DNA of 64,000 nucleotides, taken from positions 1-64,000 of the forward strand of contig VGMX01000003.1 in the NCBI GenBank assembly GCA_016866305.1. Direction: 5' to 3'. This document shows, in pieces, positions 49,818 through 54,553 of this stretch. Position 1 is the first letter of the stretch. Every line of letters begins with the position of its first letter. The position numbers and the translations under genes are program-made. The DNA comes from Chlorobiota bacterium. Its GTDB lineage: Bacteria; Bacteroidota; Chlorobiia; Chlorobiales; Chlorobiaceae. Under the pieces are notes generated by a model. That model saw nothing but the letters and a program-made list of their open reading frames with translations. It had not been told where the DNA came from and ran no database searches.

Positions 49818-50714
49818 TCAGGAGCCCGGCTTCTGCCGGGTTTCCTTCAGCTTCATCACAATCGGGTTGAAGGCTTTCGAGGCCACCAGCACCTCGTCGC
49901 CCGGTTTCAGGTTTGCCACGTCCCGTTCGCTCAGCACCACTTCCACCAGTTCGTTGCCCGTTCCGATAACAGCAAGATAGATGCAGTCAACCTTGCGGAT
50001 GCTGAGAATGATGCTGATGAACGAAAATTTGTTCGAGGTGATCCGGTCGAGAAAGACATCATGAGGAGAGCCATTTCTCGAGATGCGTCCGTTTTTTATG
50101 ACAGCGACGCTGTCCGACAGCTTGAACACCTCCTGTTTGTCGTGTGATACGAGGAGAGTCGAGAGCCCGAAGCGGCGGTGAACCTTCAATATTTCGTCCT
50201 GCAGCTGACTTCTGGTTTTCTGATCGAGCGCCGAAAGCGGTTCGTCGAGCAGAAGGATGTCGGGAGTGCGCAGGATTGCCCGTGCCAGCGCCACACGCTG
50301 CCGCTGTCCTCCGGAAAGCGTCTCGGGGTGGCGGTCGCGCAGCGCCCCAAGATCGGTGAGTTCAAGCATCTCGTCAACCTTGGTCGGCTCTTTTTTCTCC
50401 TGTGCAAAGAGCAGATTGTCCCGTACGGTCATTGAAGGAAAGAGCGCGTAATCCTGAAAGACCATGCCGACCCGGCGCTTCTGAGGGGGCAGGTTGATGC
50501 CTGAGTTGCTGTCGAACCAGGTATCTCCGTTCACGTCGATCCGCCCGCTGTCGGGTTTTTCCAGCCCGGCAAGCATGCGAAGAAGCGTTGTTTTGCCGCT
50601 TCCCGACTTTCCGTAGAGCGTGAGGATTGACCTGTTCTCTATCTGCAGATCAACCGAAAGCGTGAAAGGGCCGTTCGCACCGGAAAGTCTTTTCTCGACG
50701 GCAATACGGATCAT
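49818..50714 (-). CDS. modC: Molybdate ABC transporter ATP-binding protein
   Basis: A 298-residue ATPase. Walker A in YGKSGSGKTTLL, signature LSGGQRQRVALARA, Walker B ILLLDEPLSALD, then a C-terminal Mop/TOBE domain (about 235-290). It powers molybdate import with ModB. Its ATG overlaps the modB stop by 4 bases. Confidence 0.92.
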   Translation of the reverse strand: MIRIAVEKRLSGANGPFTLSVDLQIENRSILTLYGKSGSGKTTLLRMLAGLEKPDSGRIDVNGDTWFDSNSGINLPPQKRRVGMVFQDYALFPSMTVRDNLLFAQEKKEPTKVDEMLELTDLGALRDRHPETLSGGQRQRVALARAILRTPDILLLDEPLSALDQKTRSQLQDEILKVHRRFGLSTLLVSHDKQEVFKLSDSVAVIKNGRISRNGSPHDVFLDRITSNKFSFISIILSIRKVDCIYLAVIGTGNELVEVVLSERDVANLKPGDEVLVASKAFNPIVMKLKETRQKPGS

Positions 50715-51379
50715 CGCAGATCGAGTTTTTTGTTGACGATGTAGACAGTCATGAGAATCGCAAAGGAGAAGACAAAAAGGATTGCCGCATAGAGGTGTGC
50801 CGACTGGTAATCGAGCGACTCTACCAGGTCGTAGATCGCTATGGACGCGACTTTCGTTTCATGATCGATACTGCCGCCGATCATCAGCACCACCCCGAAC
50901 TCGCCGACAGTATGCGCGAAGGCGAGCACACCGCCGGTGAGCAGGGAACTTTTCATGGATGGCAGAATCACCTTCAGCATGGTCAGCGCTTTCGATTTTC
51001 CGAGGCTGTAGCTTGCCTCGATGAGGTTGCGGGGAACGGCATTGAATCCGGCCTGCAGAGGATGCACCATGAACGGCAGGCTGAAGATCACCGACCCCAG
51101 CACAAGACCGTCGAAACTGAATGCGAGCTGGTGGCCGAACAGATGTTCCCACAGGCTGCCGAGCCATCCCTGCCGGCTGAAGGCGAGCAGGAAGTAAAAA
51201 CCGAGCACCGAAGGCGGCAGTACGAGAGGCAGGGCGAACAGCGCTTCAAGCAGCGGTTTGATCCGTACGCGGGTCTGCGACAGGAACCAGGCAAGCGGCA
51301 TGCCGAGCAGGTAGAGAATCACGGTTGTCACCGCTGCAAGTTTCAGGGTGAGCAGAAGCGGCGCAAAGTCAAGCGTCAT
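50711..51379 (-). CDS. modB: Molybdate ABC transporter permease
   Basis: A 222-residue permease with about five transmembrane segments and the EAA-type loop IEASYSLGKSKALTMLKVILP. It forms the molybdate channel with ModC. It overlaps the mop gene by 11 bases upstream and modC by 4 bases downstream. Confidence 0.92.
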   Translation of the reverse strand: MTLDFAPLLLTLKLAAVTTVILYLLGMPLAWFLSQTRVRIKPLLEALFALPLVLPPSVLGFYFLLAFSRQGWLGSLWEHLFGHQLAFSFDGLVLGSVIFSLPFMVHPLQAGFNAVPRNLIEASYSLGKSKALTMLKVILPSMKSSLLTGGVLAFAHTVGEFGVVLMIGGSIDHETKVASIAIYDLVESLDYQSAHLYAAILFVFSFAILMTVYIVNKKLDLR

Positions 51380-51770
51380 GAGCGGCCTCCAGCGATATCT
51401 GACTTGCCTTGACCATGACGGTCACCTCGTCGCCCGGTTCGAGCGCCAGCCGTCGGAGTGCCTTCATGGTAATGATGCTGCTGAACTCTCCTGCCGGGCA
51501 GGAGAGGGAGACATCGGCAAGAATGCTCCCGGTGCCGATTTTCCCGATCACAGCCTGGAAGCGGTTGCTGAAGCTGATTTCACCGCTGAGCCGTTTTGCA
51601 AGAACCACTTCGGTCTCCTTGAAGAGTGCCTGCACCCGGCTTCCTTCGCTGAACCCCGGCTTCAGGTCGAAGAGCAGCATCGAGAGGCTTGTCCCTGAAG
51701 CATCGAGTTCGAGAAAGCAGAGCGATTCGTGCCGTTCCACCCTCTTTATGACGGCAGCAAGCTTATTCAT
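51369..51770 (-). CDS. Tandem Mop/TOBE-domain molybdate-binding protein
   Basis: A 133-residue protein of two tandem Mop/TOBE-like units (about 5-65 and 70-130; the second contains FSSIITMKALRRLALEPGDEVTVMVKAS). Such small Mop proteins bind and store or buffer molybdate. It overlaps modA by 8 bases and modB by 11, so it is co-translated with the transporter. Confidence 0.75.
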   Translation of the reverse strand: MNKLAAVIKRVERHESLCFLELDASGTSLSMLLFDLKPGFSEGSRVQALFKETEVVLAKRLSGEISFSNRFQAVIGKIGTGSILADVSLSCPAGEFSSIITMKALRRLALEPGDEVTVMVKASQISLEAAHDA

Positions 51771-52536
51771 TGGGCAGGGTGAATCCGTAGCGTTTGAAGA
51801 TACTCCTTGCCTCCCGGGAACCGATAAACTGCTCGAACTTCACTGCGGTCTGATTTCCCGATGCCGGTTTCAGAAGCACGTAACCCTGCACGATCGGCTT
51901 GTGGGTGCTTTGAGGCACGAGAACGTAATTGCCCTCTTTTGCAAGTACGGGGGCAAGTGCGAGCGAATAGGCGAGCAAGCCGACATCCGCAGCCCCTGTC
52001 TGTACGAACTGTGCTGTCTGCTGGATGTTTTCTCCAAGCACAATCCGGTTCTTCACCTTGTCGTAAACCTTGTAATGCTCCATGACCTCTCTGGCAATCC
52101 TTCCGTAAGGCGCGTGTTCAGGGTTTGCCATGGCTATTTTTCCGACTTTCGGATCGGTGAGCAGTCTGATGCCTTTTTTGGCATCGAGTCCGCCTGATTT
52201 TGTGACCCATACGGTCAATCTTCCGATTGCATAGGGTTTCGGCCTGGAAATTGCCGAACCCGAAGCGCTCAGCTTCTCAGGGTAGCTGATGTCTGCCGAG
52301 AAAAACATGTCGTACGGGGCCCCATTCTCGATCTGGGAGAACGCTTTTCCTGACGAGCCGTATACCGCCGACACCTTGTCGCCCGGATTTTTCCTGACGT
52401 ATGCGCTGATGATATCCTTCATGGCATACTGCAGGTCCGAAGCCGCGGTGATGCTTACCTGGCCAGCCGGAAGCGGCGATGCGGCGAGAAAGAGCATCGC
52501 GAAAAGAGCAGTGAATATCCGAGCTGTCTTGTTCAT
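51763..52536 (-). CDS. modA: Molybdate-binding periplasmic protein
   Basis: A 257-residue substrate-binding protein with a signal peptide (about 1-24) and a mature domain starting VSITAASDLQYAM and containing GSSGKAFSQIENGAPYDMFFSADISYP. ATG 52536 was chosen because it precedes a proper signal sequence. The reading frame is open further upstream to a GTG at 52632, and that leader is the displaced C-terminus of modD. Confidence 0.9.
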   Translation of the reverse strand: MNKTARIFTALFAMLFLAASPLPAGQVSITAASDLQYAMKDIISAYVRKNPGDKVSAVYGSSGKAFSQIENGAPYDMFFSADISYPEKLSASGSAISRPKPYAIGRLTVWVTKSGGLDAKKGIRLLTDPKVGKIAMANPEHAPYGRIAREVMEHYKVYDKVKNRIVLGENIQQTAQFVQTGAADVGLLAYSLALAPVLAKEGNYVLVPQSTHKPIVQGYVLLKPASGNQTAVKFEQFIGSREARSIFKRYGFTLPNE

Positions 52537-52553: not shown

Positions 52554-53282
52554 TCAGGAGTGTTGCGGCAGAATGCTGCCGGATGTCGGCGGGTTTGCCG
52601 AAATAGACCGACGAGAGCACAAGAATATCCACACCTGTACCACGTCTGCTCCGGCAGCCGCTATCTTGAGCGCTTCTTCGGCGGTGTCGGCTTCGACGAT
52701 CACCCGGTTTTCGGGAGCGGAGGCTTTCAGCTTTGCAATCCGGTCAAGAAATGCGTCGAGTCCGCCCAGGAACTCCGTATGCTGGCGGAAAACGAGGATG
52801 GGTTCGGACAGTCCCAGACGGTGGGGAAGCGCTCCGCCCGCCATGATCGATTTGATGGCTATCTTTTTCGTGCCGGGAAACGACTTCCGGGTAGTGACCA
52901 CCGAAATGCCGGGATTGGAAGAGCGTGCAGCCCGCACCACTTTGGCGGTTCGGGTGGCGATGCCCGAAGCGTACTCCAGCAGGTTCATTGCCACTTTCCA
53001 TCCCTCATGCAGGCTTGCCGCGCTGCCCGATGCGGCAAGGAACGTCGTTCCGGATTCCGCCTCAGTGCCGCTCGGCAGGCACGACAGTACCTTCACCCCG
53101 CATTTCTCCAGTACCCTCGCGGCCTCCTCGGTGCAAGAAAGCACGGTATGGTGCCGGCTTGTGAAGCTGATGGTTCCGGGGTTCCCGCCGATGTCGAGCA
53201 GGGTGGTTGTGAGGTCGCCGCAGGGAACATCCTCGTCGATGAATCGTTCAATCTCCGAATCGGGCAGTTGGTACATCGTCAT
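52554..53282 (-). pseudogene. modD: modD-like protein truncated by an internal deletion/frameshift
   Basis: The 242-residue frame matches ModD/NadC-type phosphoribosyltransferases (GDLTTTLL near the start, the NLLEYASGIATRT helix, TTRKSFPGTKK, HTEFLGGLD, and VIVEADTAEEALKIAAAGADVV). After VVQV at about 52640 it becomes unlike the family. The missing tail is visible in the other frame: VDILVLSSVYFGKPADIR (52579-52632), like the ModD C-terminus. About 35-45 residues between the two AGAD-type segments seem to be lost and the frame shifted. ModD is thought to act in molybdate use; activity is unlikely here. Confidence 0.65.
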
Positions 53283-53327
53283 GGTTTCTGTTATTCTCGT
53301 TATAACATGTCAGATATTTCGCCTTGC

Positions 53328-53374
53328 AAAAAAGAGCCGCTTTCAGGGCCTCATCGTGAAAACGGCTGGCAGCC
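53328..53374 (-). promoter_or_regulatory. Putative attenuator (terminator/antiterminator) in the mod operon leader
   Basis: Read leftward, a 10-bp hairpin with one G-U pair (53358-53367 with 53335-53344; arms AGCCGTTTTC and GAAAGCGGCT) is followed by T6 (53333-53328), 45 bases before the modD start. Its first arm is shared with an alternative small hairpin, GGCT-GCC-AGCC (53374-53364), so the two cannot form together. AGGGCC/GGGCCC sequence near 53418-53424 can also pair with the terminator loop GGCCCT (53346-53351). This is the layout of transcription attenuation. No known riboswitch class was recognised. Confidence 0.55.
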
Positions 53375-53588
53375 AAGGGAAGGTTATGTCCGGTTCCGTT
53401 CCAAATGCTCCCGGCACAGGGCCCTTTGATTATGCTGTCAATACTGGTATATTAATAATAAATTAAGAATATTAAAATAATAAACCTTAAATAATAAGGA
53501 TAAATCCCGGGAGTGCCGATTATATTCTTACATTCAGGTTGGATTATGTCGTTATGCCTCGTTTGCAGGCAGGCTTTTCTGTAGACTC

Positions 53589-53614
53589 TCGTTATGTATT
53601 ATGAGATATAACGA
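53589..53614. promoter_or_regulatory. ModE-like palindrome upstream of the mod operon
   Basis: TCGTTATGT (53589-53597), 8-base spacer, ATATAACGA (53606-53614): a 9-bp inverted repeat with one mismatch, resembling ModE operators (CGnTATATA-N6-TATATAACG). It lies about 305 bases upstream of modD. Further CGTTAT half-sites occur at 53298 and 53551. No modE gene is in the window. Confidence 0.45.
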
Positions 53615-54112: not shown

Positions 54113-54553
54113 ATGGAAAAGAAAAAAAACGTGCTTTTTCTCTGTACCGGCAATTCGGCTCGAAGCCAGATGGCCGAGGGATTGCTGCGTACTCTTGCAG
54201 GTGACCGTTTCGAGGCGATGAGCGCCGGACTCGAGCCAAAAGACGCGGTGCATCCCCTTGCGGTTGAAGTCATGCGGGAAATCGGTATCGATATCGGCAG
54301 CCAGAAACCCAAAACAGTTGAAGTCTATCTCGGAAAGGTACCTGTTCACTATCTCATTGTTGTGTGCAACCGGGCGCAGGCGACCTGTCCGAGAATATGG
54401 CCCGGCCTGATGGACGGGAACCGGTATTACTGGCCGGTCGATGACCCTGCGGCCATCTCCGGCAGTGTGGATGAACAGTTTGCGCTGTTCCGCGCGGTCA
54501 GGGACGAGCTGCAGGAGAAGCTCCGGAAGTGGGTTGGAGAGGTTGCCCCGTAA
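54113..54553 (+). CDS. arsC: Arsenate reductase, thioredoxin-coupled LMW-PTP type
   Basis: A 146-residue protein. P-loop C11-TGNSA-R17-S and the redox pair Cys85/Cys92 (VVCNRAQATCP) match thioredoxin-dependent ArsC. It reduces arsenate to arsenite. No arsB/acr3 or arsR is adjacent, so it looks like an orphan gene; a stem (54541-54548 with 54555-54562) overlaps its stop. Confidence 0.88.
   Translation: MEKKKNVLFLCTGNSARSQMAEGLLRTLAGDRFEAMSAGLEPKDAVHPLAVEVMREIGIDIGSQKPKTVEVYLGKVPVHYLIVVCNRAQATCPRIWPGLMDGNRYYWPVDDPAAISGSVDEQFALFRAVRDELQEKLRKWVGEVAP

Follow-up and report, generated by a model that had tools for sequence, protein, structure and literature searches.

Predicted ModE boxes, a nif-type inverted repeat and a lineage-specific hairpin in the putative control region of a green sulfur bacterial molybdate operon

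The window analyzed here, a stretch of 64,000 nucleotides from a Chlorobiota bacterium, contains a molybdate transport operon. The genome was placed in a Chlorobium-like genus, with relatives named Chlorobium, Chlorobaculum and Pelodictyon luteolum; the nearest relative of the window is G073 (locus L034, hereafter the sister), whose ModD is 88% identical. Reading leftward, the operon consists of five genes:

52554..53282, minus strand: modD, the first gene; matches TIGR01334 only to residue 218, with proteins of 281-282 aa in relatives
51763..52536, minus strand: modA, molybdate-binding protein (SBP_bac_11, E 1.7e-57)
51369..51770, minus strand: stand-alone Mop/TOBE protein (TOBE, PF03459)
50711..51379, minus strand: modB, permease (BPD_transp_1)
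49818..50714, minus strand: modC, ATPase (ABC_tran)

The modD gene looks broken, or else the assembly carries a local deletion: about 41 codons of the relatives are missing through an out-of-frame deletion of about 120-125 nt after codon 217 (near 52632), past which translation runs on in a different frame as GVDILVLSSVYFGKPADI. The Mop/TOBE protein encoded between modA and modB has no DNA-binding domain. Upstream of the mod region, at 54113-54553 of the window, lies a gene for an arsC-like low-molecular-weight phosphatase. The mod upstream regions of loci L004, L006, L012, L016 and L028 contain palindromes like TATCGTAAATATACGATA, apparently ArsR-type operators.

The region preceding modD is dense in recognizable features, which are listed here from the distal to the proximal end:

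53590..53613, minus strand: distal ModE box CGTTATATCTCATAATACATAACG, one mismatch to CGTTATAT-N8-ATATAACG; no site in the genome fits this pattern better
53463..53490, minus strand: wide, operator-like inverted repeat TTAAGG-N16-TCTTAA, with N16 spacing in relatives; also present before nifV and nifH
53448..53460, minus strand: TATTATTAATATA, candidate -10 region of a middle promoter, P2
53368..53440, minus strand: leader segment from P2 to the terminator, poorly conserved (58% identity to the sister over 53439-53368) and with no consensus fold
53420..53424, minus strand: GGGCC, complementary to GGCCC in the terminator loop (53350-53346), with which it pairs in the truncated-transcript fold; missing in the sister
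53364..53374, minus strand: small alternative hairpin GGCT-GCC-AGCC (-2.9 kcal/mol alone, -4.4 with flanks)
53335..53367, minus strand: terminator hairpin with an 11-bp stem and an 11-nt loop (-14.4 kcal/mol), otherwise found at full length only in the sister
53328..53333, minus strand: T-tract T6; T5-T8 in all 20 examined genomes whose proximal box has TATAACG
53298..53321, minus strand: proximal ModE-like box CGAAATATCTGACATGTTATAACG, three mismatches, just before modD

The hairpin makes a credible intrinsic terminator within the molybdate operon's leader. Read on the minus strand, the 5' arm AGCCGTTTTCA (53367-53357), the loop CGATGAGGCCC and the 3' arm TGAAAGCGGCT (53345-53335) form a G+C-rich stem with one G-U pair, and the 3' arm leads directly, through a single C, into the T-run (53333-53328), which is separated from the modD ATG (53282) by 45 nt. 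The initial annotation had reported such a terminator at this distance with a 10-bp stem; the stem is in fact 1 bp longer. A simple scan missed it because the loop is 11 nt long. When the upstream 60 nt were shuffled with dinucleotide content kept, an uninterrupted stem of at least 11 bp at the T-tract never appeared (0/3000), and one of at least 10 bp appeared in 3/3000. By energy alone, the terminator is less striking, with 4 of 30 shuffles equally good.

The initial annotation also described a smaller hairpin using the same AGCC arm and incompatible with the terminator, as well as an upstream GGGCC stretch with complementarity to the terminator loop, and took this to suggest transcription attenuation, possibly by a molybdenum-related RNA or ligand. 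Both features are present in the sequence. The GGCT-GCC-AGCC hairpin exists and is mutually exclusive with the terminator, but it is worth only -2.9 to -4.4 kcal/mol; GGGCC pairs with GGCCC in the predicted fold of a transcript that ends before the 3' arm of the terminator. In a regulated attenuator, Mo, Moco or a protein would make a leader transcript from P1 or P2 switch between the terminator and an antiterminator, the latter formed by the GGGCC-loop pairing or by the AGCC hairpin. This scheme draws on the terminator stem, which exceeds chance and is kept in the sister, and on the GGGCC-GGCCC pairing in the truncated transcript, whose fold with the 3' arm cut off reaches -23.8 kcal/mol. However, once the 3' arm has been made, the alternative fold, in which this arm is forbidden, costs 8.7 kcal/mol, and the pairing partners are lost even in the sister, where GGGCC is gone and the AGCC hairpin carries a 14-nt insertion and does not keep its form.

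Comparison of the leaders bears on the same scheme. The structure of the whole 158-nt leader of the window is not unusual (z -0.02), 15 leaders arranged like that of the window show no more folding stability than shuffled sequences (mean z -0.53), and the aligned leaders of two clades (6-10 leaders) have no consensus structure, with consensus-fold energies of -0.1, 0.0 and -1.2 for 6, 10 and 8 leaders, respectively. Rfam families find no match in the leader of the window or in 18 related loci; in particular, the Moco riboswitch model RF01055, which does match in E. coli and Thermus when run as a control, has no match over the gathering score here or in 65 genomes of the genus. A mutually exclusive antiterminator that is conserved or covarying was found neither in the leader alignments and folds nor in the sister comparison, and regulated attenuation appears very unlikely. 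Of the initial annotation, the intrinsic terminator in the mod leader is supported; the antiterminator and the ligand-sensing RNA are not.

Some structures of individual leaders were also noted. The last 180 nt before modD in L022 are the lone unusually stable case (z -2.92) and carry a long CTGCAGGC hairpin, unlike the other leaders. By eye, one subgroup seemed to have a GGGATAA-type hairpin, but the alignment did not support it, and a start-stop mini-ORF (ATG-YTA-TAA) spanning the proximal box was dropped upon finding that it is absent in L002, L034, L048 and L020.

The hairpin and the adjacent T-tract differ in how widely they are conserved. Between the window and the sister, the hairpin is the best-conserved block, with 88% identity against the 58% of the leader, and the terminator stem is kept via pair-preserving changes (U-G to C-G and A-U to G-U). 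Outside the sister species, conservation of the stem fails, an outcome that the initial annotation had named as one that would speak against its reading. Among the genomes examined, 20 carry TATAACG in the proximal box; in these, the T-tract is 22-25 nt from TATAACG and 42-48 nt from the start codon, upstream of both, and the perfect stems beside it comprise 10 bp in the sister, 8-10 bp in L021, where they extend into the T's, 6-8 bp in L089, 4-6 bp in L002, and none or 4 bp in the remaining genomes, such that a clean perfect stem of at least 10 bp ahead of the T-tract is found only in the window and the sister. The possibility that the T-tract is a general terminator tail was therefore rejected, given that stems are missing in most genomes. 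Its constant spacing without a hairpin marks it as a DNA element, most likely a part of the proximal promoter or of the ModE complex.

The hairpin itself would have arisen in front of this conserved T-tract in the species of the window and in the sister. The extreme version of such a history, in which the hairpin is a functionless product of drift, would be in line with the lack of clean long stems in most relatives that have the same T-tract, but is highly improbable considering that the 11-bp stem was never reached in the 3000 shuffles and that the hairpin is the most conserved block between the two species. It is probably a lineage-specific, unregulated terminator, which would end a part of the transcripts from upstream promoters, probably without a regulated antiterminator. 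An attenuation role confined to the window species and the sister is possible, the stem being too long for chance and kept in the sister. More generally, the case calls for caution because a conserved T-tract beside a young hairpin can mimic the expression platform of a riboswitch.

The molybdate control for which the attenuator was invoked is better explained by the two ModE boxes together with the ModE gene, all of which went unnoticed in the initial annotation. Both boxes are 24-bp palindromes at conserved positions before the mod genes, with one and three mismatches to the ModE pattern, respectively. In the proximal box, the left half departs from the pattern at 3 to 4 positions and is thus degenerate. 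The right half contains TATAAC and may serve as a -10 element; no obvious -35 was seen at 17 bp from this TATAAC. Only 5 sites with at most three mismatches to the pattern, among them the proximal box at 269 bp from the distal one, were found in a pattern search over the 2.24-Mb genome, and the strict pattern shows no genome-wide enrichment over the mirrored control (5 vs 6), so the case for the boxes is one of position and conservation. Among 80 distinct upstream regions of modD, 11 of them of the Geobacter type, 52 contain a ModE box with at most three mismatches, compared to 7 of 1600 single-base shuffles. In the type-A relatives, the distal box occupies the same place, at -317 to -345; these loci and those of the Chlorobaculum type have the proximal box at -36 to -41. 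The Chlorobaculum-type loci have the proximal box without the T-tract, other loci have one box near modD, and in the Geobacter relatives a ModE box directly precedes modD. ModE elements in green sulphur bacteria are reportedly already known from the work of Studholme and Pau in 2003.

The genome encodes a full-length ModE of 270 aa (L031:1429-2241) with HTH and two molybdate-binding Mop domains, which matches TIGR00637 over the cut-off and TIGR00638 twice. The nif cluster (G000:C1, L123:9150-19387) starts with nifH, and modE sits at its end, behind nifB and a gene for a 2Fe-2S ferredoxin. ModE is present in 44 of the 48 good genomes of the genus. Three of the four genomes that lack ModE (G021, G023 and G027) also lack modD; the fourth, G086 (L098), does have modD, but its upstream region contains no ModE box at up to four mismatches and, by eye, keeps an AT-rich element of the P2 kind. 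This distribution is consistent with ModE reading the boxes, within the limits that small numbers and shared ancestry set on the inference.

The layouts of the relatives also bear on whether the terminator insulates modD constitutively, ending the transcripts of the distal promoters (perhaps as a short RNA of about 115 nt) and leaving modD to its own promoter at the proximal box. The T-tract and the proximal box do behave as a locked unit, the Geobacter order places the modE-end terminator before the ModE box and modD, and the proximal box of the Chlorobaculum-type loci comes without the T-tract, all of which would suit insulation. Conversely, in the type-B genomes (L015, L016, L083 and L090), which have no proximal box or terminator, modD would be read from the P2 element, and the putative short RNA is not conserved. 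On balance, insulation appears unlikely.

Between the two boxes lies the wide inverted repeat, the left arm of which is inside the palindrome CCTTATTATTTAAGG (53499-53485). A Fur-type 7-1-7 reading of this AT-rich palindrome is possible, but the constant N16 between the arms is the stronger feature. When the spacing was left free between 5 and 25, it was exactly N16 in 21 of the 26 strong hits upstream of modD. The element in the form TTMAGG-N16-CCTKAA is common to the upstream regions of modD, nifV and nifH across the genus. The corresponding sites map to L123:9111-9138 (nifH) and L123:1082-1108 (nifV). Upstream of nifV, at least 11 of the 12 arm bases are present in 25 of 30 genus genomes; upstream of nifH, at least 10 of 12 are present in 29 of 30, always with N16 in a search that covered spacings N15 and N16 only, compared to about 6% of shuffles. 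In the window's genome, the exact TTAAGG-N15/16-CCTTAA occurs upstream of nifV only, and this exact form shows no genome-wide excess over the mirrored control, so here, too, the case is made by position and conservation.

The putative P2 promoter was positioned by alignment, where the candidate -10 region of the window lines up with a TATAAT/TATTAT that relatives have immediately 3' of the N16 element. A promoter at this site is further supported by the type-B genomes, in which there is no proximal box or T-tract and modD directly follows the N16 element. The operator of NikR is GTATGA-N16-TCATAC. Like it, the element described here is a 28-bp dyad of two 6-bp arms with 16 bp between them, although the sequence of the arms differs; a NikR gene is present in the genome. 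We lean, if only slightly, towards the mod promoter belonging to a green sulfur nif regulon that comprises nifH, nifV and modD and is defined by the 28-bp element, with its own regulator, possibly NikR-like in geometry, in addition to ModE control. The element shared by nif and mod genes is the fresher observation and is worth following up: should it prove to be a genuine operator, it would connect the uptake of molybdate with homocitrate synthesis and nitrogenase in the green sulfur bacteria, and the search for its regulator would become a direct experiment.

Taken together, these observations point to a control region that would operate mainly at the DNA level, a reading that we consider probable: ModE would repress promoters overlapping its boxes, and the hairpin would be a local, probably unregulated terminator. 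Molybdate-loaded ModE would bind the distal box, overlapping a promoter about 330 bp upstream, and also the proximal box just before modD, and would thereby repress mod transcription when molybdate is plentiful, as in the case of E. coli modA. The second promoter, P2, would lie between the boxes and bear the 28-bp inverted repeat that also precedes nifV and nifH, and through this repeat, Mo uptake would probably be tied to nitrogen fixation as well. A speculative new Mo-sensing RNA thus gives way to a testable model with named sites.

Several known systems share features with this arrangement. Like the Moco riboswitch (RF01055; PMC2408646), the region is the leader of a molybdate transport operon, but it has neither a match to the model nor the P1-P5 architecture. 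With the ModE-repressed operator of the E. coli modA type, for which the ModE consensus is ATCGNTATATA-N6-TATATANCGAT (PMC545781), it has several features in common: a 24-bp palindrome CGTTATAT-N8-ATATAACG overlaps a TATATT -10-like sequence, a full-length ModE is encoded in the genome, and the predicted target is a mod operon. The differences are the two predicted boxes, spaced by about 290 bp, the conserved T-tract before the proximal one and the nif-type repeat between them. In the modDABC operon of G. sulfurreducens, a ModE site is predicted upstream and a full-length modE is adjacent (PMC545781; also PMC2700814). The Geobacter modE-modDABC loci (L057-L074) share with the window the order of terminator, ModE box and modD, along with related ModD and ModE proteins; there, however, the terminator ends modE, whereas here the hairpin ends only a leader, and modE itself sits in the nif cluster.
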